Of a stretch of 64,000 nucleotides of DNA, positions 2,480 to 16,724 are shown one piece after another; the first letter of the stretch is position 1, and each line of letters begins with the position of its first letter. Made by a program: the position numbers and the translations under genes. The notes under the pieces were generated by a model. The model had not been told where the DNA came from and made no database searches. It saw only the letters and a program-made list of their open reading frames with translations. Source of the stretch: Erysipelotrichaceae bacterium (GTDB lineage: Bacteria > Bacillota_I > Bacilli_A > Erysipelotrichales > Erysipelotrichaceae); the NCBI GenBank assembly GCA_030526485.1, contig JAUNCS010000006.1:1-64000 (forward strand), read 5' to 3'.

Positions 2480-3523
2480 TTAGTTTTCGCTGTAGTTAGG
2501 AGTAACAACGATTTCACCAGCTACGATCTTAGCGATGATGTCATTAACCTGAGTAGCTACTTCTTCAGGCATTTCAGATGAGAAAGCAGCGATGCTTACA
2601 ACACCATCATGTAAACCTGGGAAGCTCTGGCCACCGTAGTTACCAGCCTTGATTAAATCAGTCTGTGAAGAAATCATGAATGGGATGTCGATTAACATAG
2701 AAGTTAACATCTTACCACCTTCAACTAAAGCTGACTGGTCAGAAGTATAACCGATGCACCAAACACCATTTTCAGAACAGTACTGAAGAGCACCTAAACC
2801 AGTGTGGTCACAAGTCTGAAGGATTACATCAGCACCAGCTTCATGCATAGCCTTAGCAGTTTCATAACCTAGGTTAGAGTCATCGAAAGTACCAGTAATA
2901 ACAGTCTTAACTTCTACATTAGCATTGATAGACTTAACGCCTTCAACGAAAGCATTCTTATCTGACTGCTGAGTAGTGTTGTTACCACCACCGATGTAAC
3001 CAACTACACCAGTCTGAGTCATTAAAGCAGCGATAACACCAGAAACGTAAGCACCTTCACATTCTCTGTAATCAGCGAACATAATGTTCTTTGGAAGATC
3101 TTCTTCAGCGATATCTTCTGGAGCATTACCAGTGATGAAGAAGTTTACAGTATCAAAGTCTTCAGCAACATTGCAGATAGCCTGGCCGTATTGCGCACCA
3201 TGGCCGATGATGAAGTCAAAACCTTCTTCAGCATAGCTTCTAGCTACTGCTTCAGCAGTTGCAACGTCAACGTTTTCAGTATAAGCAACTTCATAGCCCT
3301 GAGATTCAATAGTCATTAAACCTTCATAAGCTGACTGGTTCCATGACTGGTCAGTGATTGAACCAGGAAGAATAACAGCAATCTTAGATACAGTGTTACG
3401 ATCAGCAACTGGAGCACTGTTGTCACCAGCTGTAGAATTGTTGTCTTCAGTCTTATTTGAAGAACAAGCAGCAAGGCTTAGTACCATCATTACAGATAGT
3501 AATAAAGCGAATAATTTTTTCAT
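2480..3523 (-). CDS. BMP/PnrA-family substrate-binding lipoprotein
   Basis: This 347-residue extracytoplasmic binding protein is of the BMP (PnrA/Med) family, members of which bind purine nucleosides or related compounds. It has a signal peptide with lipobox LSLAAC, then an acidic Asn/Glu linker and the BMP core: VAVILPGSITDQSWNQSAYEG at residues 47-67, the GHGAQYGQAI motif, and GYIGGGNNTTQQSDKNAF. It is the last gene of a five-gene importer operon. A Shine-Dalgarno (GGGAGG) precedes the ATG, and a small ACTCA/TGAGT hairpin lies in the 45-bp gap to the permease gene, perhaps stabilising the abundant binding-protein message. The ligand may be a nucleoside or, given the COG0212 neighbour, a thiamin-related compound. 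Confidence 0.85.
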   Translation of the reverse strand: MKKLFALLLSVMMVLSLAACSSNKTEDNNSTAGDNSAPVADRNTVSKIAVILPGSITDQSWNQSAYEGLMTIESQGYEVAYTENVDVATAEAVARSYAEEGFDFIIGHGAQYGQAICNVAEDFDTVNFFITGNAPEDIAEEDLPKNIMFADYRECEGAYVSGVIAALMTQTGVVGYIGGGNNTTQQSDKNAFVEGVKSINANVEVKTVITGTFDDSNLGYETAKAMHEAGADVILQTCDHTGLGALQYCSENGVWCIGYTSDQSALVEGGKMLTSMLIDIPFMISSQTDLIKAGNYGGQSFPGLHDGVVSIAAFSSEMPEEVATQVNDIIAKIVAGEIVVTPNYSEN

Positions 3524-3568
3524 TTTCTTTCCTCCCTATATATGACACTCAAATGAGTTATCACCAAA

Positions 3569-4510
3569 TTAACGGCTTTCCTTATCAAAAGGAAGACCAA
3601 GCTCCTTAGGAGCCCTTAGGTTGCGTCCACCGATAGCCAATACCACAATAGTAATCAGATATGGCAAAGCAACAAAGAACTGGAACGGTAATGAAGAGCC
3701 CATTACCTGTAGACGAATCTGTAAGGCTTCGATTGAACCAAAAGTAAATGAAGCCAGAACCGCAACCAGCGGATTCCATCTCGCCAATATAACAATAGCC
3801 AAGCAGATAAAGCCACGACCGCTGGTAACACCTTCTGAGAAGGCACCAACTGAGCCAAGTACCAGTGAGGCACCACCAATACCCGCTGCAAAGCCACAGA
3901 ACATATAACTTAAAATTCTAAAGCGGTAAACATTAACACCACATGATTGAGCAACCTTAGGATCTTCGCCAACAGATGTTAATAGTAAACCAAGTTTTGT
4001 CTTCTTCATCACAAAGAACATGATTAAGGCAAAGATTACTGCCCCATATGTAAGTAATGACTGTTCGAAGAAGACAGGTCCGATAAACGGAATTTTTGAT
4101 AATAGAGGAATCTTAACAATCGGGAATGTCGCAATCGCAATATTTGCATTGTTAGTTCCAAAGACAATTCTATTTAAGAAGTTAGTAAAACCAGCCGCAA
4201 AGATATTAAACATAATACCGGTAATTGACTGATCCTGTTTCAATAAGACTGACCAGATAGCAGGGATCAGTGATACAAACATACCAGCTAAGCCACCAGC
4301 TAAAACACCTAACCAAAGTGAACCGGTTTTTAAGGCTACAATGTAAGAGAATAATGATCCAAATAACATTTCGCCTTCAATAGAAATACCAATGGCACCT
4401 GCTTTTTCTAAGAAGCAGTCACCGACTGAAGCATAGATTAGTGGTACTGCCATTCTGACACCAGCACCAAATAAAGCTACAAGGAAAGTCATTGTAAAGA
4501 AATCTTTCAT
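3569..4510 (-). CDS. BMP-type ABC importer, permease 2
   Basis: This 313-residue polytopic membrane protein is of the RbsC-like permease family used by nucleoside/BMP importers (NupQ/YufQ type). It opens with hydrophobic segments and the conserved stretch SVGDCFLEKAGAIGISIEGEM, then GSLFSYIVA; later come GVNVYRFRILSYMFCGFAAGIGGASL and TSGRGFICLAIVILARWNPL, matching the cytoplasmic loop that contacts the ATPase. It starts 1 base after the stop of permease 1. Confidence 0.85.
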   Translation of the reverse strand: MKDFFTMTFLVALFGAGVRMAVPLIYASVGDCFLEKAGAIGISIEGEMLFGSLFSYIVALKTGSLWLGVLAGGLAGMFVSLIPAIWSVLLKQDQSITGIMFNIFAAGFTNFLNRIVFGTNNANIAIATFPIVKIPLLSKIPFIGPVFFEQSLLTYGAVIFALIMFFVMKKTKLGLLLTSVGEDPKVAQSCGVNVYRFRILSYMFCGFAAGIGGASLVLGSVGAFSEGVTSGRGFICLAIVILARWNPLVAVLASFTFGSIEALQIRLQVMGSSLPFQFFVALPYLITIVVLAIGGRNLRAPKELGLPFDKESR

Positions 4511-4511
4511 C

Positions 4512-5564
4512 TTACTTCACCTTCTTTCTCTTGTCTAAGTAGACGCTTATTGCCATACCTAAAAGAATAAATAGAACAATTAATGCTTCAAGTACTGAGG
4601 CAAATGATGTTGGGATACCGGTTTTTACTTGCATAGTAACAGCACCTGAACTGATTAAGGCCATAAAGAAAGCCGCAATCACAATACCGATAGGATTTAA
4701 GTTACCAAGTAAGGCAACAACAATGCCACCAAAGCCAAAGTCTGCTGCTACACCACTCATTAATCGACCAGTATTACCGGCAACCTGCATCATACCCGCA
4801 AGGCCACAGATAGCACCTGATATAAGCATGGCAATGAAATAGTATTTCTTTTCAGAGATACCTGAATAGCGGCTGGCCTTGATAGAGCCACCCAATACTC
4901 TTAAGTTATAACCAAACTTTGTCTTATAAATGACAATGGCATATATCACAACCATGATAAGAGCGATAATTACCCCATAATTGATTCTTGAACCGGTAAA
5001 GATTTTTGGAATCATCGTACCAATCTTGGCAGATTGAGGTTCAGCACCTGCTCTTAAATGGTAGAAAATAATATAACTGATTAACTGCGTTGCGATATAG
5101 TTAAGCATTAAGGTCACAACCAGTTCGGAAGCATTAAACATTGTCTTAAAGATTGAAGCGATAGAGGCATATAAACCGCCCATCAGCATACCTAACAAGG
5201 CACCTAAGACAAGTGAGAAGATGCCAAGTGACTTACCTAATGGGGAAACGCCAACAAGAGTCATACCCAGGGCACCAAATAAAATCTGGCCTTCGCCACC
5301 CAGGTTTGTCAGTTTGCACTGTAATGTAAAGCTAACACCAACACCTACCAGTAACAACGGTGTAAAGTACATAGATACTTCACCAAGCGAAGATACTGAC
5401 GACATAGGTCTAAGTATCATGTAGTAATAGGCGTCCATTGGATTAGCACCACTGGCAATAACCAGAAGCGAACCAACAAGCATTGCCATAATTACACTGC
5501 AGACAATGATAATGATTTTCTTCAGGGATTCTAAGCTTTGAAACTGATTTAATAATTTTCTCAT
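4512..5564 (-). CDS. BMP-type ABC importer, permease 1
   Basis: This 350-residue membrane permease is of the NupP/YufP type, the partner of permease 2 in a heterodimeric channel. It has about ten hydrophobic helices, the conserved LTNLGGEGQILFGALG segment, and the coupling region YNLRVLGGSIKASRYSGISEKKYYF followed by GGIVVALLGNLNPIGI. Its ATG overlaps the ATPase stop by 4 bases, indicating translational coupling. Confidence 0.85.
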   Translation of the reverse strand: MRKLLNQFQSLESLKKIIIIVCSVIMAMLVGSLLVIASGANPMDAYYYMILRPMSSVSSLGEVSMYFTPLLLVGVGVSFTLQCKLTNLGGEGQILFGALGMTLVGVSPLGKSLGIFSLVLGALLGMLMGGLYASIASIFKTMFNASELVVTLMLNYIATQLISYIIFYHLRAGAEPQSAKIGTMIPKIFTGSRINYGVIIALIMVVIYAIVIYKTKFGYNLRVLGGSIKASRYSGISEKKYYFIAMLISGAICGLAGMMQVAGNTGRLMSGVAADFGFGGIVVALLGNLNPIGIVIAAFFMALISSGAVTMQVKTGIPTSFASVLEALIVLFILLGMAISVYLDKRKKVK

Positions 5565-7075
5565 GCTTTACCTCCCATCATCATATAAACAACATCACCT
5601 GTGCTGGCTGTATTTGGATCACATTCGCCAATAATTTCACCGCGATATAAAACCACAATACGGTCACAGATGGCAAATAATTCTTCTAAGTCACTTGATA
5701 AGACAAGGATGCCACTGCCATTTTTCTTAGCTTCCAATAGACGACTTCTAACCGAATATGAAGCCTTGATATCCAAGCCTCTTGTTGGATAAGAACAGAT
5801 CAAGACATTAGAAACTTCTTCCATTTCTCTGGCCAGGATAAACTTTTGCAGGTTACCACCAGACAGATTAGCCGATCTGACATTCTGATCCTTGGCGCGG
5901 ACATCAAACTTTTCCATGCCCTTCTTGCAGTCTTCATTAATCTTCTTGTTATCTAATAAACCAAATTTCTTTGGCACTTTAATTTTTCTTAATAACCAGT
6001 TAGAAACTAAAGAGAAATCAGAAACCGTACCAGTATGATTACGGTCAGAAGGGATATAAGCTACACCTTTTTCCATAAATTCTTTAGTCTTGCCTGGCTT
6101 CAGGTTTTCACCAGCTACCTCAATAGAACCTTTGGTAACATTTCTGACACCAGCCAGTACCTGAGCCAGTTCTTCCTGGCCATTGCCTTCAACACCAGCA
6201 ATGCCCACGATTTCACCCTTATGAATAGTCAGGTCGACATGATTTAGAGTTTGTACGCCTCTATCATCCTTGGCAGCCAGATCTTTACAGTTCATGATTA
6301 CGATATCTGATGGCTTTTCTTTTTCGAAATTAAATTTCTTTAAGGCATCTTCACCAGACATCATAGTTACGATAATATCTTTATTCGCATCAGCAGTCTT
6401 AACTTCACCAGTAACTCTACCAGCTGATAAGACATTGATACGATCAGAAATTTCCAGTACTTCATCAAGCTTATGGGAAATAAAGATTACACCCTTATTT
6501 AATGAAGTCATATTTCTGATGATCTTAAATAAAGATTCGCATTCCGCCGGTAACAATACAGCGGTTGGCTCATCAAGAATAAGAATTTCTGCACCAACAT
6601 ATAAAACCTTTAAGATTTCTACTTTCTGCTGCATAGAAATGCTTAACTGTTCAACTGGACAGTCAAGGTCAACGTCAATACCAAACTGAGCCTTTAATTC
6701 TTCCAGCCTGTCCTTAACCTTTTTCTTGTTTAAAACAGAAAATGATTTATCATCAGAAATTAAAATAATATTTTCAACAGCATTGAAACGGCCAATCAGC
6801 ATAAAGTGCTGATGAACCATGCCAATAGAAAAAAACATGGCATCTTTTACTGAGTTAATATTAGCTCTTGAACCGTTCACGAAAATCTGACCACTATCTG
6901 GTTTATATATGCCATAAATAATGTTCATTAAAGTACTCTTACCGGCACCATTTTCACCAAGTAAAGCCAGTACTTCGCCCTTTTGTAAGTGAAGAGAGAT
7001 GTTATCATTTGCCTTAACATCCTTAAAACTCTTACTTATACCCTTTAGTTCAAGCAGATAATTCTCATTTGCCAT
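5561..7075 (-). CDS. BMP-type ABC importer, double-domain ATPase
   Basis: This 504-residue cytoplasmic ATPase has two nucleotide-binding domains in tandem, like RbsA and NupO/YufO. Domain 1 has an intact Walker A (GENGAGKST, about residue 40), a signature region (QLSISMQQKVEILKVL) and Walker B (ILILDEPTAVL). Domain 2 has a degenerate Walker A (GVEGNGQEEL, lacking the GKS/T core) but a good signature (LSGGNLQKFILARE). This asymmetry is normal for the family. The gene lies 30 bases after the 5-FCL-like gene and overlaps permease 1. Confidence 0.9.
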   Translation of the reverse strand: MANENYLLELKGISKSFKDVKANDNISLHLQKGEVLALLGENGAGKSTLMNIIYGIYKPDSGQIFVNGSRANINSVKDAMFFSIGMVHQHFMLIGRFNAVENIILISDDKSFSVLNKKKVKDRLEELKAQFGIDVDLDCPVEQLSISMQQKVEILKVLYVGAEILILDEPTAVLLPAECESLFKIIRNMTSLNKGVIFISHKLDEVLEISDRINVLSAGRVTGEVKTADANKDIIVTMMSGEDALKKFNFEKEKPSDIVIMNCKDLAAKDDRGVQTLNHVDLTIHKGEIVGIAGVEGNGQEELAQVLAGVRNVTKGSIEVAGENLKPGKTKEFMEKGVAYIPSDRNHTGTVSDFSLVSNWLLRKIKVPKKFGLLDNKKINEDCKKGMEKFDVRAKDQNVRSANLSGGNLQKFILAREMEEVSNVLICSYPTRGLDIKASYSVRSRLLEAKKNGSGILVLSSDLEELFAICDRIVVLYRGEIIGECDPNTASTGDVVYMMMGGKA

Positions 7076-7105: not shown

Positions 7106-7858
7106 TTATTTACAGTGAACTCTGCACCATAATTCCTGTACAGGTGGAATCTGTTCTCTCATACCTGGAGCAAGTCTTGCCCAGATAATGCCCTTGCTAG
7201 GACGTGGGAATTCATGTCTAGTTTCAATGATTCTTGTAGGAGTAACGATATAGTCGATAGCTGTATCGTATTCTTCTACTGTTACTGGTACATCAGCAAC
7301 CTGGCAATCATGACCAGCACCAATGATAACTGTATCCTTATCAGCGATACCAACAGTTGAAAGCATAGCCCATTCTAAGTCGAAGTAGCCATGGCCCTTA
7401 CCAAATCTGATACCACTTGGTGTGATAGCGCTAGCACCAGTTACCATCATATCAATATGATTAATCTTTTCTGAAAGCTGAGCTAATGTCTGGTGTTTCC
7501 AGTATCTGCCAATGCCATCAAGTAATGAAGCAACTTCTTCCTTACCTTCAGGAATCTGACCTGGTTCAATTAAGAAGAAACCTCTAGTAATACCATAGTT
7601 AGTCATGATAACAGTCTTCTTATCCTTAAAAGCTCTTTCTCTTAAAGTTTCAAGATTGTTGTCAGGAGTAATAAAGATTACCTTAGCATTCTTATACATA
7701 TCAGTAGCACAAAGAAGTTCTGTACCCTTTTCACTACCTTCATAATCACAGATAAATTCAGAGAACTGCCAGCTAAATTTTGAATCTGGTTTAGCTACCT
7801 TTAATAGTTCTTCCCAAATACGAACACGTTCAGTTTTTGCATCAACTTTTACTTCCAT
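7106..7858 (-). CDS. COG0212-type 5-formyltetrahydrofolate cyclo-ligase paralog
   Basis: This 250-residue cytoplasmic protein of the MTHFS fold carries the Gly-rich segment FGKGHGYFDLEWAML near residue 165. That spacing and the DLEWA ending are typical of the COG0212 5-FCL-like subgroup rather than true 5-FCL (which has GGGYYDR). The frame extends to a TTG at 7876, but the ATG at 7858 is preferred because AAAGGAG lies just before it. As first gene of a BMP importer operon it probably acts on the imported ligand. From memory, COG0212 paralogs have been linked to thiamin metabolism rather than folate; whether that holds here is inference. Confidence 0.75.
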   Translation of the reverse strand: MEVKVDAKTERVRIWEELLKVAKPDSKFSWQFSEFICDYEGSEKGTELLCATDMYKNAKVIFITPDNNLETLRERAFKDKKTVIMTNYGITRGFFLIEPGQIPEGKEEVASLLDGIGRYWKHQTLAQLSEKINHIDMMVTGASAITPSGIRFGKGHGYFDLEWAMLSTVGIADKDTVIIGAGHDCQVADVPVTVEEYDTAIDYIVTPTRIIETRHEFPRPSKGIIWARLAPGMREQIPPVQELWCRVHCK

Positions 7859-7886
7859 AAAGACTCCTTTTTTCAAATACTTTTCA

Positions 7887-7914
7887 ATATTAACATATGT
7901 AAAAAATGTTTCAA
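7887..7914 (-). promoter_or_regulatory. Promoter of the BMP importer operon
   Basis: The minus strand reads TTGAAA (7909-7914), a 16-base spacer, then TAATAT (7887-7892). The leader is about 20 nt and ends in the AAAGGAG ribosome site. No riboswitch-like fold was recognised between here and the oppA terminator. Confidence 0.5.
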
Positions 7915-7963
7915 TATGATTTAAAAACGTAATCCCTTACAAATTAAAAATTTCTTCAAAGAA

Positions 7964-7995
7964 TAAAAAAAGGACCTATATTACTATAGATCCTT
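7964..7995 (-). terminator. Terminator of the opp operon
   Basis: On the minus strand a 10-bp stem (AAGGATCTAT with ATAGGTCCTT, one G-U pair) is followed by seven T. It begins 25 bases after the oppA stop. Confidence 0.85.
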
Positions 7996-8019
7996 AGATT
8001 AACTAATTATTTAAATTAA

Positions 8020-9792
8020 TTATTTGCCGTAGTACTTAGAGATTACTTCCATAGCAGCATTGTAGTTAGCTTCATAAGCTTCTTCTGCTACGTCGTAGTA
8101 ACCAACGAAAGCGTCGTTATGACCAGCATTCTTGCAGAATTCTGAGCCATCTGGTTCGATTAAACCTAAAGCAACGAATGAAGATGCAGGTTCCTGACCA
8201 GCCTTACCGATTTCTCTAACGATGTAGTTTCTATCTAATACTAGAGACATAGCGTTTCTTACAGCAGCCTGTTCATTCTGGTAAGCAGCAACATCCATAT
8301 CCTTGCCAGCAGCACCTAATAAGTCAGCGTTAACGTTCCAGCAAACGTAGTAAGTACCTAACTGACCAGCGATAACGAATTCGTTAGCGTATTCAGCCTT
8401 TAGAGTGTCGATTTCAGCATTTGGAACTGAATCGATGAATAACCAGTCGCCAGTCTTGAAGTTAGAAAGCATAGCGTTATCATCATCTGATAAGTAGAAT
8501 TCGATAACTTCCATTGTAACTTCATCAGCATTTACGTAGTCTGGGTTCTTAGTTAGAGTGATCTTAGAGTTGTGATCCCAACCAGTCATAGTGTACATAC
8601 CGTTTGTTACGTATGTAGAAGGATCAGTAGCCCAAGCTTCGTTGTTTTCAACGATATCTCTTCTTAAAGGCATGTATGTAGGGAATGCAAGTAATTCATT
8701 CCAGTAAGCAGTGTAGTTATTTAATGTTACTGTGATTGTACCAGCAGCATCATCAGCAGTTACATCAAGACCTTCTGGAGTACCGTAACCCTTGATGCAG
8801 TCGAACATATAGCCGTAGTCAGCACCTAGTTCATCACTAGCAGCTCTCTTCCAAGCCCATTCGAAATCAGAAGCCTTAACTTCAACGCCATCAGACCACT
8901 TAGCACCTGAAACTAGTTCATAAGTGTAAGTAACTGTACCGTCTTCGTTGTAAACTGGTTCGCTTAATTCCTTAGCTAATTCAGCAACTACTGTAGGAAC
9001 GCCGTTTACGCTGTCCCACTTAGCTAAAGCTGAGAAGCAATGAGAAACAAGAGTAGCACCATCAACAGAAGAGTTTAAAGCTGGGTCGATGTTATCTGGT
9101 TCAGAAGCGATACATACAGGAAGTGTAGTAGAACCATCAGCTAAAGTAGTCTTGTTGAAGAACTTGTAGCCTAATGGGCTTGAATAGAAACCAGAAATCT
9201 TGTCAGAGATCATGTATACGTCAGTGTAGTAGTAAAGTGGAGTGATAGCACCTGTAGACATTAATAAGTCTTCAGCCTTGTGCATTAATGCGAAACGTAA
9301 ATCCTGATCAGCACTTGTCTTTACGATAGCGATGATAGCATCATAAGTTTCAGCCCAAGTTCCATTTTCAACTTTTAGGTCGATACCTAAGTCTGTGCAG
9401 TCTACAGAGTAGATAGCAGCATCCTTATGAGCGCCCTTACCAAACTGGCAGTCGTTGTTACCAGATTCTGTTGTCCACATATCAAGGAATGAGATAGGGT
9501 CGTTGAAGTCACCTAACCAACCATTTCTAGCGATAGTGAAGTCACCGTTCTTTCTTGTGTTTAAGAAAGTAGCCCATTCCTGGTTTTCAAGCTGAATATT
9601 TACACCAGCAGTAGCTAATGCACCCTGGAAGTATTCAGCGATAGCCTGGTGGCCAGAACCGTTGTTGTAAAGGTATGTTAAAGTTGGAGCTGTTGTAGTA
9701 GTTGTAGTATTGTTGTCTTCCTTCTTACCACCACAAGCAGTTGCAGAGAATAACATAGCGATTACTAAAAGAATTGTTAATAATTTTTTCAT
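8020..9792 (-). CDS. oppA: Circularly permuted oligopeptide-binding lipoprotein OppA
   Basis: This 590-residue family-5 binding lipoprotein has its halves swapped. After the signal peptide and lipobox (ATAC) and a Thr-rich linker, residues about 35-216 match the C-terminal third of OppA: IAEYFQGALATAGVNIQL, LENQEW, RNGWLGDFNDPISFLDM, ITPLYYYTDVYM and the usual family ending SPLGYKFF. After a roughly ten-residue joint, residues about 221-590 match the family N-terminal two thirds: ASEPDNIDPALNSS, SGAKWSDGVEVKASDFEWAWKR, TNGMYTMTGWDHNSKITL, and finally YYDVAEEAYEANYNAAMEVI, which in normal OppA directly precedes the first segment. The total equals one full copy. The start is the ATG at 9792 with AAAAGGAG before it, not the upstream ATG at 9819. 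It lies last in a complete opp operon. Confidence 0.9.
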   Translation of the reverse strand: MKKLLTILLVIAMLFSATACGGKKEDNNTTTTTTAPTLTYLYNNGSGHQAIAEYFQGALATAGVNIQLENQEWATFLNTRKNGDFTIARNGWLGDFNDPISFLDMWTTESGNNDCQFGKGAHKDAAIYSVDCTDLGIDLKVENGTWAETYDAIIAIVKTSADQDLRFALMHKAEDLLMSTGAITPLYYYTDVYMISDKISGFYSSPLGYKFFNKTTLADGSTTLPVCIASEPDNIDPALNSSVDGATLVSHCFSALAKWDSVNGVPTVVAELAKELSEPVYNEDGTVTYTYELVSGAKWSDGVEVKASDFEWAWKRAASDELGADYGYMFDCIKGYGTPEGLDVTADDAAGTITVTLNNYTAYWNELLAFPTYMPLRRDIVENNEAWATDPSTYVTNGMYTMTGWDHNSKITLTKNPDYVNADEVTMEVIEFYLSDDDNAMLSNFKTGDWLFIDSVPNAEIDTLKAEYANEFVIAGQLGTYYVCWNVNADLLGAAGKDMDVAAYQNEQAAVRNAMSLVLDRNYIVREIGKAGQEPASSFVALGLIEPDGSEFCKNAGHNDAFVGYYDVAEEAYEANYNAAMEVISKYYGK

Positions 9793-9813
9793 CTTTCTTC
9801 TCCTTTTATCTGT

Positions 9814-9831
9814 ACGCATATTTTTATGCGT
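9814..9831 (-). other. Intercistronic hairpin before oppA
   Basis: Perfect 7-bp inverted repeat ACGCATA / TATGCGT with a 4-nt loop in the 63-bp oppF-oppA gap, without a T-run. It could be an mRNA-processing or stability element raising binding-protein levels; the role is inference. The stop-to-start gap is the largest inside the operon. Confidence 0.4.
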
Positions 9832-9855
9832 TACATTTAAACAAAATTTTATTAC

Positions 9856-10836
9856 TTATTTAACCTTATGACAAGCACAGAAATGACCAGGTTTTACTTC
9901 CCTGAATTCTGGCATTGACTTAGCGCATTCCTCACTAGCCTTAGGACATCTAGTTCTGAATGGACAACCTGAAGGAGCATTTAATGGTGAAGGGATATCG
10001 CCTTCAAGGACGATTCTCTCATTTGCTCTGGCAATCTTTGGATCTGGTACTGGTACTGCAGACATTAGAGCCTGTGAATATGGATGTAGAGGATGTTCAT
10101 AAATTTCATCAGCATCACCCATTTCAACCATGTGGCCAAGATACATAACAGCGATTCTATCAGAAATGTGTCTTACAACTAATAAGTCGTGAGCAATAAA
10201 TAAGTAAGTTAAGCCAAGCTCTTTCTTTAGTTCATCAAACATGTTGATAACCTGAGCCTGAATAGATACGTCTAGAGCTGATACTGGTTCATCACAAACG
10301 ATGAAGTCTGGATTTACCGCTAAAGCTCTGGCAATACCGATTCTCTGTCTTTGACCACCAGAGAATTCATGAGCGTATCTTGAAGCATGTTCAGAGTTAA
10401 GACCAACCTTAGCCATTAAATCTAAAATCTTAGCTTCTCTTTCTTCTTTAGAGTTATATAAATGATGGATATCAAGTGGTTCACCAATGATATCTGAAAC
10501 TGTCATACGAGGATTTAAAGAAGAATATGGATCCTGGAAAACCATTGTGGCCTTCTTACGGAACTCCTGAATATCTTCCTTAGTTTCAATCTTCTTGCCA
10601 TTGTAGTAGATTTCACCGCCAGTAGGCTTGTATAGATTTAATACAGTTCTGCCAACAGTAGTCTTACCACAACCAGATTCACCAACTAAACCTAATGTTT
10701 CACCCTTATTGATATAAAAAGAAACATCATCAACAGCCTTAAGCTGCTTAGTCTTAAACATTCCATCAGCAATATCGAAGTATTCCTTTAAGTTCTTTAC
10801 TTCAATAAGTGGAGTTTGTTTATTTACTTCTGACAT
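9856..10836 (-). CDS. oppF: Oligopeptide ABC importer ATPase OppF
   Basis: This 326-residue ATPase has Walker [10 protein letters not shown], the signature ARALAVNP preceded by EFSGGQRQR, Walker [15 protein letters not shown] and the H-loop [10 protein letters not shown]. The C-terminal oligopeptide/dipeptide extension, with Cys-rich [15 protein letters not shown] and the terminal FCACHKVK, marks the Opp/Dpp ATPase subfamily. It pairs with OppD at the membrane; the start overlaps the OppD stop by one base. Confidence 0.95.
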
Positions 10837-11843
10837 TATTTAGCTTCCTCCACTTCTACTTCACCCTTTTCAATTGCTTCCTTTAAGTTAATGAAGCACT
10901 TTGCAAAGTGATTAGGACCAACTTCCTCAAGTTCTGGACAATTGTTGATACAAATCTTCATTGCATTCTGACATCTTGGCGCAAATGGACAACCCTTTGG
11001 CATATTTAATAAGTCAATTGGTGTACCAGTAATTGGCTCAAGCTTCTTGCCTGAATTTGAACTAGTTGGAATAGATCTTAATAGACCCTTTGTATATTCA
11101 TGCTTAGGGTTGTAGAAGATATCATCTGCACTACCCTTTTCACAAATTGAACCAGCATACATAACGATTACTTCATCACAAATCTGAGCGATAACGCCAA
11201 GGTCGTGAGTAATCATGATGATAGCCATACCAAGTTTCTTCTGTAAAGAAATCATTAAGTCGATGATCTGAGCCTGAATAGTAACATCCAGCGCTGTAGT
11301 AGGTTCATCGGCAATCAGAATATCTGGTTCGCAAGCTAAAGCCATAGCGATACCGATTCTCTGTCTCATACCACCTGATAATTCAAATGGATACTGATTA
11401 ATTCTCTTATCTGGTTCATTGATACCAACAAGAGTTAAAAGTTCTTTTGTTCTCTCTCTAGCTTCTTCCTTAGTTCTATCAGTATGAAGAAGAATAGCCT
11501 CCATAATCTGATGACCAATTGTATAAGTAGGATTTAAAGAAGTCATTGGGTCCTGGAAGATAATAGAAATCTTATTACCTCTGATAGTTCTAAGAACATT
11601 TTCACCAGCACCAACAAGTTCCTGTCCATCTACTACAACTGAAGAACCTTCAAGAATCTGACCTGCACCAGCCAGAATCTGTAATACTGAGTAAGCTGAA
11701 ACTGATTTACCTGAACCAGATTCACCTACGATACCTAGTACCTTACCTCTTTCCAGTGAGTAAGAAACACCATTAACAGCCTTTACTTCACCAGCATCTG
11801 TAAAGAAAGAAGTCTGTAAATTATTAATTTCTAATAAAGCCAT
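10836..11843 (-). CDS. oppD: Oligopeptide ABC importer ATPase OppD
   Basis: This 335-residue ATPase has Walker A GESGSGKSV, signature ELSGGMRQRIGIAMALA, Walker B ILIADEPTTALDVT and H-loop MITHDLGVIA. The C-terminal Opp-type cysteine cluster (GCPFAPRCQNAMKIC...C) is present, probably an Fe-S or metal site as in other OppD/DppD proteins. It forms a heterodimer with OppF and lies 12 bases after OppC. Confidence 0.95.
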   Translation of the reverse strand: MALLEINNLQTSFFTDAGEVKAVNGVSYSLERGKVLGIVGESGSGKSVSAYSVLQILAGAGQILEGSSVVVDGQELVGAGENVLRTIRGNKISIIFQDPMTSLNPTYTIGHQIMEAILLHTDRTKEEARERTKELLTLVGINEPDKRINQYPFELSGGMRQRIGIAMALACEPDILIADEPTTALDVTIQAQIIDLMISLQKKLGMAIIMITHDLGVIAQICDEVIVMYAGSICEKGSADDIFYNPKHEYTKGLLRSIPTSSNSGKKLEPITGTPIDLLNMPKGCPFAPRCQNAMKICINNCPELEEVGPNHFAKCFINLKEAIEKGEVEVEEAK

Positions 11844-11855
11844 ATCTTCCTCCTC

Positions 11856-12914
11856 TTACGCATTTAATTTAGGGTCAAACGCATCGCGAAGACCATCACC
11901 AAATAAGTTTAGTGATAATACAATTAATGAAATAACGATTGCAGGGATGATTAAACGGTAAGAATAAGTATTGATACCATTTAAAGCATCTGAAGCAAGT
12001 GAACCAAGTGAAGGCATTGGTGCGTTAACACCTAAACCAAGGAATGACAGATAAGATTCTGTAAAGATTGCACTTGGAATCTGAAGAGCAGTTGAAATAA
12101 CGATAACTGAAATACAGTTAGGGATTAAGTGCTTCTTGATAACCCAGAAAGCCTTAGCACCTGAAGCCTGTGCACTTAATACATATTCCTGTTCTCTTAA
12201 AGATAAAATCTGACCTCTGATTAAACGAGCCATTGAAACCCAATATAACAGAGCGAATACGATAAATAACGAAATGATATTAGAACCAATCTTTTCAAGC
12301 GGTGTACCCTGAATAGCTGTAGCCAGGTTAGTCTGCTTTAATACTGAAGCCAACAGGATAATCATCAACATATCAGGTAATGAATAGATAATATCAACGA
12401 TACGCATGATAAATAAGTCCACCTTACCACCAACATAACCAGCGATAGAACCAACAGTCATACCGATGATTAATACGATGATAGAAGCGAAGAAACCGAT
12501 AGAAAGAGAAATTCTTGTACCATAGATGATACGAATGAAGTAGTCTCTACCAGCTGAGTCTGTACCAAAGATATGTGGAACCAGGCTTTCACCAGCAGCG
12601 ATTCTCTTAAGTTCAGATTCAGACCACTGCATAGGGAATAGATTGTTGAAAGAAGGATCAACAGGCTTACCAGGTTGCATACCTAACTGCTGGTCATAAG
12701 CATATGGCCAGAACATTGGAATAACGATAGAAGCGATAGTGATAATTACGATAATAATTAAAGAAACTGTCGCAACTTTATTTTTGAATAATCTCTTGCA
12801 ACCATCCTTAAAGAAAGTAGAAGATGGACGCATTTGCACCATATAGGCTTTTTCTTCTTCAGATGCAGGTAGGAAGCTATCTGTATCTAAATGCATAGTT
12901 AGTTTTTTCTTCAT
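11856..12914 (-). CDS. oppC: Oligopeptide ABC importer permease OppC
   Basis: This 352-residue inner permease has a long cytoplasmic N-terminus, one membrane anchor, then the binding-protein-dependent permease domain. The family stretch HIFGTDSAGRDYFIRIIYGTRISL and the EAA-loop region ASGAKAFWVIKKHLIPNC are both visible, with FTESYLSFLGLGVNAPMPSLG near the end. It lies between OppB and OppD with short gaps. Confidence 0.95.
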   Translation of the reverse strand: MKKKLTMHLDTDSFLPASEEEKAYMVQMRPSSTFFKDGCKRLFKNKVATVSLIIIVIITIASIVIPMFWPYAYDQQLGMQPGKPVDPSFNNLFPMQWSESELKRIAAGESLVPHIFGTDSAGRDYFIRIIYGTRISLSIGFFASIIVLIIGMTVGSIAGYVGGKVDLFIMRIVDIIYSLPDMLMIILLASVLKQTNLATAIQGTPLEKIGSNIISLFIVFALLYWVSMARLIRGQILSLREQEYVLSAQASGAKAFWVIKKHLIPNCISVIVISTALQIPSAIFTESYLSFLGLGVNAPMPSLGSLASDALNGINTYSYRLIIPAIVISLIVLSLNLFGDGLRDAFDPKLNA

Positions 12915-12928
12915 CTTAGCCTTCCTCC

Positions 12929-13858
12929 TTATTCAAATGAAATTCTAGGGTCAACAATCTTGTACATGATATCTGATACTAAGTTAGAAATAACGATTAA
13001 TACAGAAAGTACGATAGTAGTACCCATGATTAATGGATAGTCACGGCTAGTGATAGAGTTAACGAAAGCTCTACCAATACCAGGAACTGAATAAATCTTT
13101 TCAACTACCAGTGAACCAGTAACGATATAAGCCAGCATTGGACCTACATAAGTGATAACTGGGATTAAAGAGTTCTTTAAAGCGTGTTTAAAGACTACAC
13201 CCCACTTAGAAACACCCTTTGCCTTAGCAGTTCTGATATAGTCCTGACCAAGAACATCAAGCATACTTGATCTGGTTAAACGGGTAACATGTGACATTGG
13301 TGATAAAGATAAGGTAATAACCGGCAATATCAAACCACCAGCAGCAGCACCATTGGCAGGTAAAACATTTAATTTAACTGCAAACAATAGTAAAAGGAAA
13401 GTACCCATGATAAATGAAGGCATAGATACGAAAGCTGTTGAAATAACCATGATTAGTCTATCAACAAATTTATTTCTATTTAAAGCTGCACATGAACCAA
13501 GTAATACGCCCATGATTAAAGCGATGATAGCTGCAATAACACCAAGCTTAGCTGATACTTTCATACCATCGGCGATGATGTCGATAACAAGTCTACCTCT
13601 CTGCTTAATACTAGGACCGAAATCAAAATGGAAAACGATGCCCTTTAAATAAGTTAAATACTGTTCAAATAATGGCTTATCTAAACCATATTTTGCCTCT
13701 AGAGCCTGTCTAACTGATTCAGAAACTGACTTTTCAGATAAGAATGGTCCACCTGGAACCGCGTGCATTACAAAGAATGTAATTGTAATAACACACCAGA
13801 CAGTTAGAGCGGCTAGTAAAATTCTTTTTATAATGTAACCTAACGTCTTAGAATTCAT
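12929..13858 (-). CDS. oppB: Oligopeptide ABC importer permease OppB
   Basis: This 309-residue permease has about six membrane helices. The family N-terminus (YIIKRILLAALTVWCVITITF, PGGPF) and the EAA-loop (DYIRTAKAKGVSKWGVVFKHALKNSL) are present. It is the first gene of the opp operon; GGAGAG precedes the ATG. Confidence 0.95.
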   Translation of the reverse strand: MNSKTLGYIIKRILLAALTVWCVITITFFVMHAVPGGPFLSEKSVSESVRQALEAKYGLDKPLFEQYLTYLKGIVFHFDFGPSIKQRGRLVIDIIADGMKVSAKLGVIAAIIALIMGVLLGSCAALNRNKFVDRLIMVISTAFVSMPSFIMGTFLLLLFAVKLNVLPANGAAAGGLILPVITLSLSPMSHVTRLTRSSMLDVLGQDYIRTAKAKGVSKWGVVFKHALKNSLIPVITYVGPMLAYIVTGSLVVEKIYSVPGIGRAFVNSITSRDYPLIMGTTIVLSVLIVISNLVSDIMYKIVDPRISFE

Positions 13859-13892
13859 ACATCTCTCCTTTCAACAAACGCATACAACATTA

Positions 13893-13920
13893 ATTTTACC
13901 TAAAAATAAGGGTCATACAA
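13893..13920 (-). promoter_or_regulatory. Promoter of the opp operon
   Basis: The minus strand reads TTGTAT (13915-13920), a 16-base spacer and TAAAAT (13893-13898), starting right after the U-tract of the upstream transporter's terminator. The leader is about 30 nt with GGAGAG before oppB. Confidence 0.55.
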
Positions 13921-13921
13921 T

Positions 13922-13948
13922 AAAAAAATGGTAATTCTACCATTTTTT
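13922..13948 (-). terminator. Terminator of the trpXYZ-type operon
   Basis: An 11-bp stem of AAAAAATGGTA type with its complement and a 4-nt loop is followed on the minus strand by T-rich sequence, 12 bases after the ATPase stop. Confidence 0.85.
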
Positions 13949-13960
13949 ATGAAAATATTT

Positions 13961-14773
13961 TCATTTTAAGAAAAAATAATCACTCAAGATAATGCGGTCA
14001 TTATCCAGTTCTTCACCAGAATTTTCCCTAAATTTCTTCAAAAGATCATCCACAGTATAAGACTTCCTCTCTTCCCCTTCACAATCAAAGACGACTCTTC
14101 CATCCTTCATCATTAAAGTACGATTACCAAGCTCTAAAGCCTGTTTCATATTATGGGTAATCATTAAAGTAGTGATTTTATCTTCTTCAACGATCTTCTT
14201 GGTTAATTCCAGTACTTTATCAGCAGTAGCGGGATCTAAGGCTGCTGTATGTTCATCCAACAATAAAAGTTCAGGCTTAGCCAAAGTAGCCATTAAAAGT
14301 GTTAAAGCCTGTCTTTGACCACCAGATAATAAGCCAATAGGCGAACTCATGCGGTCTTCAAGTCCCATATCAAGTAAGGCTAATCTGTTTCTGATTTCCT
14401 CTCTATCACTTTTAGTTAATCTGCTTAACAAAGGTCTATTCTTAGACTGCAGATAAGCCAAAGCCATATTTTCCTCGATTGTTAAATCAGGACAGGTACC
14501 AAGCATTGGATCCTGGAATAAACGACCAATCTTCTTGGAACGAAGATGTTCCTTCATAAAAGTGATATCCTTACCATCAAGAATAATTGAACCCTCATCG
14601 GTTAAAAATGTACCAGCAATCATATTAAATAAGGTTGACTTACCAGCCCCATTAGAACCAATAATTGTAATAAAGTCGCCATCCTTAACACTAAGATTAA
14701 AGTGATTTAAAGCCTTCTTTTCATCAGGAGTGCCTGAATTAAAGGTCTTTGAAATATTTTTTAACTCAAGCAT
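13961..14773 (-). CDS. ABC importer ATPase, TrpZ type
   Basis: This 270-residue ATPase has Walker A GSNGAGKST, signature LLSGGQRQALTLLMATL, Walker B LLLLDEHTAALDP (the family-typical DEHTAALDP instead of DEPT) and H-loop ITHNMKQAL. That Walker B variant is characteristic of the COG1101 ATPases paired with COG2984 binding proteins. It is last gene of the operon and overlaps the permease by 8 bases. Confidence 0.85.
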   Translation of the reverse strand: MLELKNISKTFNSGTPDEKKALNHFNLSVKDGDFITIIGSNGAGKSTLFNMIAGTFLTDEGSIILDGKDITFMKEHLRSKKIGRLFQDPMLGTCPDLTIEENMALAYLQSKNRPLLSRLTKSDREEIRNRLALLDMGLEDRMSSPIGLLSGGQRQALTLLMATLAKPELLLLDEHTAALDPATADKVLELTKKIVEEDKITTLMITHNMKQALELGNRTLMMKDGRVVFDCEGEERKSYTVDDLLKKFRENSGEELDNDRIILSDYFFLK

Positions 14774-15698
14774 TTTTAATCTCCTTATTATGATTCATTC
14801 TTCTTTTAAATTCAGGATACTTACTCTTAATATAAGGAAGCGAAATAGCCAGAACAACAATAACTGATGATACAAGTTTAAGCATATAAGCTGGCATCTT
14901 TAGACGAAGGGCCAACATATAAGTGATTCTAAAGATAATGGCACCAATTACACAGGCAACGCCTTTTTTAGCACTTGAACCTCTTCTTACCAAAGTAGAA
15001 CCAATAAGTAATGAAGCCAGCGCAACCGTTACCATGCCATTACCAATATCAATTGAAACTGACTTTTGGGATTGAGCCAGTAAACAGCCTGATAAAGCTG
15101 TAAAAGAATTGGAAATACATAAGCCAACTGTCGTAGTAAAGACTGGATTAATTGATGAAGTCTTTACCATTGATGGATTATTACCAGTAGCTCTAATTGC
15201 CAAACCCAGCTTGGTCTTTAAGAATAAAGATAAGAAGATTAATACGATAACCACAGCAATCAAACCAATAAACATCACATTGTACTTAGCCAGGCCATAA
15301 GTACTTAAGAAGTTCTTCATCTTAACAAAGACAGTTTCTGTCTTATTCATATTAAGCAATGATGAACCACCCATGATGGCAATATTAACTGAATATAAAC
15401 CGGTATTAACTACAATACCAGCCAAAAGTGAATTAACACCCATTCGTGTTTGTAGGAAGGCAGTCACAAAACCGGAAACAGATCCTGCCAGCATGGCCAT
15501 AGGCAGCGCCAGATAGGGATGGCCACTAAGAGCTACAATCGCACCAACAGCTGCTCCAAGAGTGAAGCAGCCATCAGTTGATAAATCACAAACATTTAAC
15601 ATTGAATAGCTTAGGAAAAGGGATAAAACTGTAAGCGAACAGATTAATCCCAGTTCCACAGCTGTAAAAGACATATTGAATAAAGCAGTTAAACTCAT
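14766..15698 (-). CDS. ABC importer permease, TrpY type
   Basis: This 310-residue membrane permease is of the RbsC-like/COG4120 family. Visible blocks are LSYSMLNVCDLSTDGCFTLGAAVG near the N-terminus, ATGNNPSMVKTSSIN, and the C-terminal helices with ALASLLIGSTLVRRGSSAKKG. It sits 3 bases after the binding-protein stop codon. Confidence 0.85.
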   Translation of the reverse strand: MSLTALFNMSFTAVELGLICSLTVLSLFLSYSMLNVCDLSTDGCFTLGAAVGAIVALSGHPYLALPMAMLAGSVSGFVTAFLQTRMGVNSLLAGIVVNTGLYSVNIAIMGGSSLLNMNKTETVFVKMKNFLSTYGLAKYNVMFIGLIAVVIVLIFLSLFLKTKLGLAIRATGNNPSMVKTSSINPVFTTTVGLCISNSFTALSGCLLAQSQKSVSIDIGNGMVTVALASLLIGSTLVRRGSSAKKGVACVIGAIIFRITYMLALRLKMPAYMLKLVSSVIVVLAISLPYIKSKYPEFKRRMNHNKEIKNA

Positions 15699-15701
15699 AT
15701 T

Positions 15702-16724
15702 TTAGAAACTTTCTGCAGTCTTAATTTCTTCAACCTTAGTGCATAATGGAGCGAAGGTTTCTTTAACAGTTTCAAAATCTAAACCCAGGTCTGCACAGAT
15801 TTCAGTATTGACAGTAGCAGTACCATTATCGAAAGTCTTAACTGGATATGTGCTTACATCTTTGCCATTCATTAGGATATCCGCAACCATTGCACCCGTT
15901 TCTTTACCAAGATTTGCATAGTCAACGCCATAGCCTACAAACGCACCATTTAAAGCGAATGAATCAGCACCACCATAGTGTTTGATACCGTTTTGAGCCA
16001 TCTTTTCATAGATAGTAAGTTCAGCAGCCATGATTGTATTATCAGAAGGAGTAAAGACAACCTTAACGCCATCATCAATCATCACATCAACAGCACTGCT
16101 TACATCAGTAGTATTGCCACCATTGTATTCCTTATAAGCTACACCTTTCGCATTTAAGTAATCCTTAGCAGCCTTAATAGCTGTAAAAGAAGAATCTTGA
16201 CCAAGGTCATATAATAAACCAACAGTTTCAGTTTCTGGATTTAAAGCCAGAATTAAGTTCATCATAGCGTTTGTATCAAGATAATCACTGGTACCAGTTA
16301 GATTTGCACCTGGATTTTCAAGTGAATCAACCAGTCCTGCACCAACCGGATCCGATACAGCCGCAAAGACTACCGGAATCTGACTTTCATCAGTAGCACC
16401 CTGCATAGCCATGGCAACCGGTGTAGCTACCGCTACCATCAGGTCAACTTCTTCAGCTTCAAAATCAGCAATAATCTGTGCCAGATCATTTGGATTAGCG
16501 TTACAGTTTTGATAATAGATTTTAAATTCAACCGGATTATTTAAAGAAACATTTACCAGTTTATCTTCAATATTTTCAACAATCTGATTTAAAGAAGCGT
16601 CATCAACATAGTTACAGATACCAACCTTATAAGTAGTAATTCCATTGTCTTCCTTGTTTTCTTCTTTTGCACCACAAGCAGTCATTAATAATAATGCCAA
16701 TAATACAGTTAATAGTTTTTTCAT
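15702..16724 (-). CDS. ABC importer binding lipoprotein, TrpX type
   Basis: This 340-residue COG2984-family solute-binding lipoprotein has lipobox LMTAC. Core motifs include YQNCNANPNDLAQIIADF, VAVATPVAMAMQGA, IPVVFAAVSDPVGAGLV and NLTGTSDYLD. Tryptophan is the likely ligand because the gene stands directly behind a T-box with a UGG specifier; family members are commonly assigned as Trp or Tyr importers. The start is fixed by AAAGGGAGG. Confidence 0.85.
   Translation of the reverse strand: MKKLLTVLLALLLMTACGAKEENKEDNGITTYKVGICNYVDDASLNQIVENIEDKLVNVSLNNPVEFKIYYQNCNANPNDLAQIIADFEAEEVDLMVAVATPVAMAMQGATDESQIPVVFAAVSDPVGAGLVDSLENPGANLTGTSDYLDTNAMMNLILALNPETETVGLLYDLGQDSSFTAIKAAKDYLNAKGVAYKEYNGGNTTDVSSAVDVMIDDGVKVVFTPSDNTIMAAELTIYEKMAQNGIKHYGGADSFALNGAFVGYGVDYANLGKETGAMVADILMNGKDVSTYPVKTFDNGTATVNTEICADLGLDFETVKETFAPLCTKVEEIKTAESF

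Follow-up and report, generated by a model that had tools for sequence, protein, structure and literature searches.

The last gene of an oligopeptide-import operon in the window (the whole 64,000-nucleotide stretch of Erysipelotrichaceae DNA analysed here) encodes a family-5 binding protein whose parts seem to stand in the wrong order. The question raised by this locus is whether the gene is a genuine circular permutant of oppA and, if so, how it arose and what the rotated protein does. The operon runs in the order oppB-C-D-F-A, with a terminator-like stem at its end. Its features are listed below with the evidence for each.

12929..13858, minus strand: oppB, BPD_transp_1 (Pfam)
11856..12914, minus strand: oppC, BPD_transp_1 and OppC_N (Pfam)
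10836..11843, minus strand: oppD, ABC_tran and oligo_HPY (Pfam)
9856..10836, minus strand: oppF, ABC_tran and oligo_HPY (Pfam)
8020..9792, minus strand: permuted oppA, 590 aa from the likely start M at 9792, open frame to 9819 (sequence, Pfam, structure-chain alignment, doubled profile, AlphaFold)
9733..9792, minus strand: predicted signal peptide and lipobox SATA/C, Cys20 of the 590-aa form (sequence, lipobox pattern scan)
9436..9693, minus strand: module 3, equivalent to OppA ~357-441, PTLTYLYN to NNDCQFGK (alignment, doubled profile)
9508..9510, minus strand: Asp codon equivalent to Salmonella OppA Asp419 (alignment; position computed)
9367..9435, minus strand: site B insert, about GAHKDAAIYSVDCTDLGIDLKVE (alignments)
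9154..9366, minus strand: module 4, equivalent to OppA ~445-517, its end SPLGYKFF being the native C-terminus (alignment, doubled profile)
9124..9153, minus strand: joint NKTTLADGST, ~10 residues from the native C-terminus to the native N-terminus (sequence)
8332..9123, minus strand: module 1, equivalent to OppA 1 to ~280 (alignment, doubled profile, model)
8023..8301, minus strand: module 2, equivalent to OppA ~285-355, ending in the new C-terminus MEVISKYYGK (doubled profile, model)
7970..7995, minus strand: terminator-like stem and T-run behind oppA (sequence)

The remainder of the operon (B, C, D and F) is normal, with Pfam matches for all four genes, as the initial annotation had held. 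An Rfam search of window positions 7500-14500 returned no RNA family. Another Opp operon of this genome has a binding protein of normal order (L183). Judged from translations alone, a BMP-family-like lipoprotein, two permeases and an ATPase at 2480-7075 (minus strand) look like a nucleoside-type importer, and a cluster of genes for an ABC ATPase, a permease and a TrpX-like binding protein lies upstream of oppB (13961-16724, minus strand).

The open reading frame at 8020-9819 (minus strand) comprises 599 aa, and its likely start is M10 (9792), downstream of AAGGAGAAGAAAG. Pfam SBP_bac_5 (PF00496) matched the protein in two stretches (E = 1.7e-54, 185.8 bits against a gathering cut-off of 32.4). 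The order of the parts is not the collinear I-II-I-III-I of OppA: the C-terminal third, occupying the ~190 first mature residues and corresponding to OppA 357-517, stands first, and the N-terminal two thirds, corresponding to OppA 1-355, follow, giving a total of one OppA. Alignment with the B. subtilis OppA structure 8are placed query residues 228-545 on chain residues 17-322, 41-124 on 365-450 and 164-222 on 462-520. Aligning the segments with SBP_bac_5 and OppA structures thus gave a rotated order. Rotation was called with a profile built from 42 normal-order relatives and doubled head to tail, from which the start and end columns of each protein's alignment were read. The window protein started at column 363 and ended at ~360 of 522, so that no part has been lost or duplicated and each part of OppA is present once. 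The gene is therefore confirmed as a true circular permutant of the family-5 binding proteins, starting at OppA ~356 and stopping at ~355, on which sequence, profile and structure agree. The permuted order, segment limits, joint and both termini given in the initial annotation proved right within a few residues, and its view that the two segments add up to one full OppA agrees with the columns covered (363-522 and 1-360 of 522). The Asp in the motif GDFNDP aligned with chain residue 419, so the equivalent of Salmonella OppA Asp419, which we take to be the residue contacting the peptide N-terminus, is conserved. The site B insert is absent from outgroup normal OppAs, and a similar sequence forms the N-terminus of relatives opened at another site (type B, below).

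A structure was predicted with AlphaFold2 from an alignment of 73 rows, for which any relative with a different segment order was divided into collinear pieces. The model had a mean pLDDT of 92.7 and a pTM of 0.89, although it is an alignment-based prediction and no proof of folding. Residues 214-590 superposed on Salmonella OppA 1-355 (Z 29.4, rmsd 2.3 over 339 residues), which for these residues agrees with the topology check recommended earlier. This superposition places the new C-terminus at OppA ~355, within domain III, which we take to span residues 271-486. Foldseek gave a TM of only ~0.5 for the full model because a sequential aligner cannot simultaneously place the N-terminal segment of a permutant. 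Modelled alone, this segment was poorly predicted (pLDDT 80.8, rmsd ~13), and most of its family-5 matches fell on C-terminal thirds, such as MppA 376-523 and DppE 363-495. The OppA fold is thus present in the predicted model by superposition for residues 214-590, and by sequence together with a weak separate model for the N-terminal segment. Every top match by sequence and by fold was to a family 5 binding protein of cluster C, a fold other than the sugar-binding one of cluster B. These results support the earlier proposal of an opening inside the third domain, a short linker across the native termini and a signal peptide before the new N-terminus.

A junction probe, consisting of a C-terminal part followed by an N-terminal part, was run across the order and in named genomes. 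Permuted genes were found across the order, and the matches in named genomes came from metagenome assemblies labelled Clostridia, Oscillospiraceae, Lachnospiraceae, Erysipelotrichaceae, Acholeplasmatales, Coriobacteriaceae, Atopobiaceae, Treponema, Sphaerochaetaceae and Anaerolineaceae. Most permuted OppAs come from bacteria of the gut and rumen, spread over several phyla. Four openings were distinguished by profile column: A at ~360 (that of the window), B at ~448, C at ~280 and D at ~120 (seen once). In Salmonella OppA numbering, alignments place C at about 280-285, A at 355 and B at 441-445, and D is estimated at roughly 135-142. Breakpoints of one type agree to a few residues and sit in loops of the model. 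In all permuted types the native termini are fused via a short joint, and a lipobox pattern scan found a signal peptide and lipobox before the new N-terminus in the permuted genes checked. The permuted gene occupies the exact slot of the normal oppA in operons of the BCDF-A arrangement (the window, L188, L184, L186, L103 and L098, against the normal L185, L187 and L166) and likewise in A-BCDF operons (L178 and L181, against the normal L179, L180 and L182). The single type D gene (L207:5830-7632, plus strand) lies behind oppBCDF on a circular 215-kb record (OY725879.1) of a Subdoligranulum variabile isolate. Its opening falls in domain II, and the idea that domain III is the sole place of opening was dropped for this reason. 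The closest relatives found for it (51-55% identity) have the normal order, and a family search around G795 for further column-120 openings returned only normal and B-type relatives. Two normal-order OppAs (L214 and L225) are split into two profile matches at this same loop, probably by inserts.

Several loci show unusual arrangements. L153:3-2531 (plus strand) encodes a type B OppA behind a very long charged stalk, made up of over 260 residues of repeats rich in Ala, Glu and Asp, and runs off its contig. At L120:1638-9572, one oppBCDF lies between two binding proteins, of normal order upstream and of type B downstream. L118:2417-14990 and L119 contain back-to-back Opp operons, of which one ends in a type C binding protein and the next begins with one of normal order.

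The number of rotations was estimated from trees of all proteins rotated back to the normal order. A FastTree analysis of 147 proteins required 11 type changes, an IQ-TREE analysis of 52 proteins from the window's wider clade 9, and a tree of 42 proteins (the other subfamily plus outliers) 6; normal-order relatives persist within the same clades as permuted forms. Grouping all type C proteins as one clade was rejected (p 0.002), as was grouping the type C proteins of the L054 and L084 groups (p 6e-9). Type B as one clade was also rejected (p 3e-49), but this type could be the ancestral state, lost later in some lineages. Within the window's own clade the AU test gave no support for independent origins across all A or all C rows (p 0.23 for a single A clade that leaves out L171, p 0.51 for a single C clade), and the safe count was therefore drawn from distant clades only. 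At least eight events are needed: L073 (A), the L054 group (C), the L084 group (C), L197 (C), L207 (D) and three within the wider clade of the window. The best trees, scored by parsimony, give about 14 changes. Separate trees of module 1, modules 1+2 and modules 3+4 showed the same pattern; the permuted genes are thus not mosaics, and chimerism between distant paralogues was ruled out. A firm direction from normal to B and then to A, C or normal, with the site B insert as a scar, was weakened by three normal-order proteins (L192, L193 and L196) that carry part of this insert and were placed near the base of the tree. If 20-25 loops were equally likely to open, 8 openings on 4 sites would have a probability of about 0.003-0.008, a rough, after-the-fact figure. 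The OppAs of related gut bacteria have thus rotated independently many times, at least eight, at few surface loops.

The window genome is a draft of 72 contigs, in which a chimeric contig, or two tandem oppA genes collapsed by assembly, might mimic a permutation. This is exceedingly improbable here. In a second species of the genus (G019), a protein of the same permuted order matches residues 5-599 at 68% identity and is likewise encoded in an oppBCDFA operon, which shows that the permutation is not a local assembly error. Separate assemblies contain 14 distinct genes with the window's opening, their breakpoints agreeing within a few residues, the permuted frame is under coding constraint, and the type D gene stands in a circular record of an isolate, although the named permuted genes are nearly all from metagenome assemblies and this single isolate case has another opening. 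The initial annotation had suggested searching related genomes for the same order; G019 and the further permuted genes across the order supplied it, and both a collapsed tandem and a normal order, named there as refuting outcomes, are excluded by G019, at least 12 further genes with the window's opening and dozens with other openings. As to how a real permutation arose, the most similar two proteins of different type, L073 (type A) and L081 (normal), are informative. The proteins are 84.3% identical; in the DNA, blocks of 1026 and 480 bp are swapped at 81% identity, and the flanks match, including the upstream region with promoter, ribosome-binding site and signal peptide and the 3' intergenic region. 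The rearrangement was therefore internal to the gene, which stayed at its locus. The simplest account of such an in-place swap would be duplication and trimming: the mature coding region would have been duplicated in place within oppA, the native termini would have been fused across the copies, and the front of the first copy and the tail of the last would then have been lost, with promoter, signal peptide and 3' flank kept. Permutation by duplication and its intermediates have been reviewed (PMC3320104). The account predicts fused duplicates such as L123:5598-9584 (plus strand), a single 1329-aa lipoprotein frame with two type B OppA units (84.7% identical) and Ala/Glu/Val-rich linkers. No fused normal-normal intermediate was seen among the loci, the tandem in L123 being of an already permuted protein. 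The rival routes are the moving of a DNA block and fission followed by fusion of the half genes in reverse order. Moving a 480-bp block would also produce what L073 shows, two neighbouring blocks exchanged while signal peptide and 3' flank stay as they were. We consider these routes rather unlikely, as half-length separate oppA frames were absent from the loci examined except at contig ends, and a fused tandem duplicate does exist. Duplication, already favoured in the initial annotation, thus fits both L073/L081 and L123 and is still best worded as a probable route.

Permuted OppAs are under purifying selection, with dN/dS values of 0.02-0.23 in close permuted pairs (A, B and C) against 0.09 in a normal pair. 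The rotated protein would fold to the usual two-lobed flytrap, bind peptides with a free N-terminus and feed OppBC like any OppA. Most likely it serves ordinary oligopeptide import with its lipid anchor in a new place. The main physical effect of the rotation would be that the anchor leaves from domain III (A, B and C) or domain II (D) rather than from domain I. The chances are about even that rotation is a neutral by-product, in which OppA tolerates re-opening at some loops, duplication is frequent and rotated forms drift in with function unchanged: the openings sit in loops, and permuted and normal forms share the same operon slot and similar dN/dS. The reuse of few sites (at least 8 openings on 4 sites) hints at a preference instead, although structural permissiveness alone may explain it. 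Adaptive rotation, in which the anchor is shifted to another face and alters docking, reach or exposure, seems rather unlikely. It would suit the fact that three of the four openings, and nearly all cases, fall in domain III, on the other lobe from the native termini, and tethering was proposed as a reason for the permutation of TpMglB-2 (PMC4990184); however, the fourth opening (L207, column ~120) is in domain II, and normal-order relatives remain in the same clades. Only tentatively can it be suggested that OppA of gut bacteria rotates repeatedly and reversibly, in place, among few openings, that some normal genes are re-normalised descendants (L011 inside the B clade), and that the cause is either a local duplication process or selection for an anchor on the other lobe. 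For the window itself, we are highly confident in the joint reading of a lipid-anchored OppA (SBP family 5) of an oppBCDFA importer, its mature part permuted and opened at OppA ~355 in domain III, probably importing peptides and derived from an in-place duplication.

The window protein resembles OppA and other SBP_bac_5 proteins of cluster C (Salmonella OppA 1ola, B. subtilis OppA 8are, DppE) in full-length homology, operon partners, lipoprotein nature and the Asp419 equivalent, but differs in its rotated segments, in the anchor entering domain III and in the fused native termini. It is an OppA by descent, and probably in function, that departs from the family in one defining feature, the collinear order. 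A natural circular permutation is known from the T. pallidum MglB-2 (Tp0684) family, a cluster B sugar-binding protein described as "Type Ic / Cluster Bc" (PMC4990184). The two cases are analogous in that a tethered ABC binding protein is permuted, with one opening common to many species; TpMglB-2 retains ligand binding and closure (PMC4990184). However, TpMglB-2 has one described opening, whereas cluster C OppAs show at least four openings, repeated independent events and an in-place swap visible in DNA. DNA methyltransferases and saposin/swaposin are likewise families with natural permutations, with duplication intermediates documented for the methyltransferases (PMC3320104); these proteins are unrelated, and in OppA normal and permuted copies are up to 84% identical and share an operon slot. 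The open-access literature searched contained no permuted member of cluster C, OppA included. The earlier remark that no permuted OppA had been described thus stands within that literature, with the addition that permutation is known in a binding protein from a different fold cluster.

In most proteins with a natural circular permutation, the change happened once, long ago, and is recognised by comparing distant relatives; OppA has rotated many times, and recently enough to leave normal and permuted orthologues 84% identical with matching flanks. The mutations that make permutants, the permissive loops, reversal and selection could therefore be tested with OppA. Annotation based on segment order splits or undercounts permuted binding proteins. 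The rotation of OppA is genuine and looks functional, and it may be regarded as a natural experiment in re-cutting a protein without breaking it.
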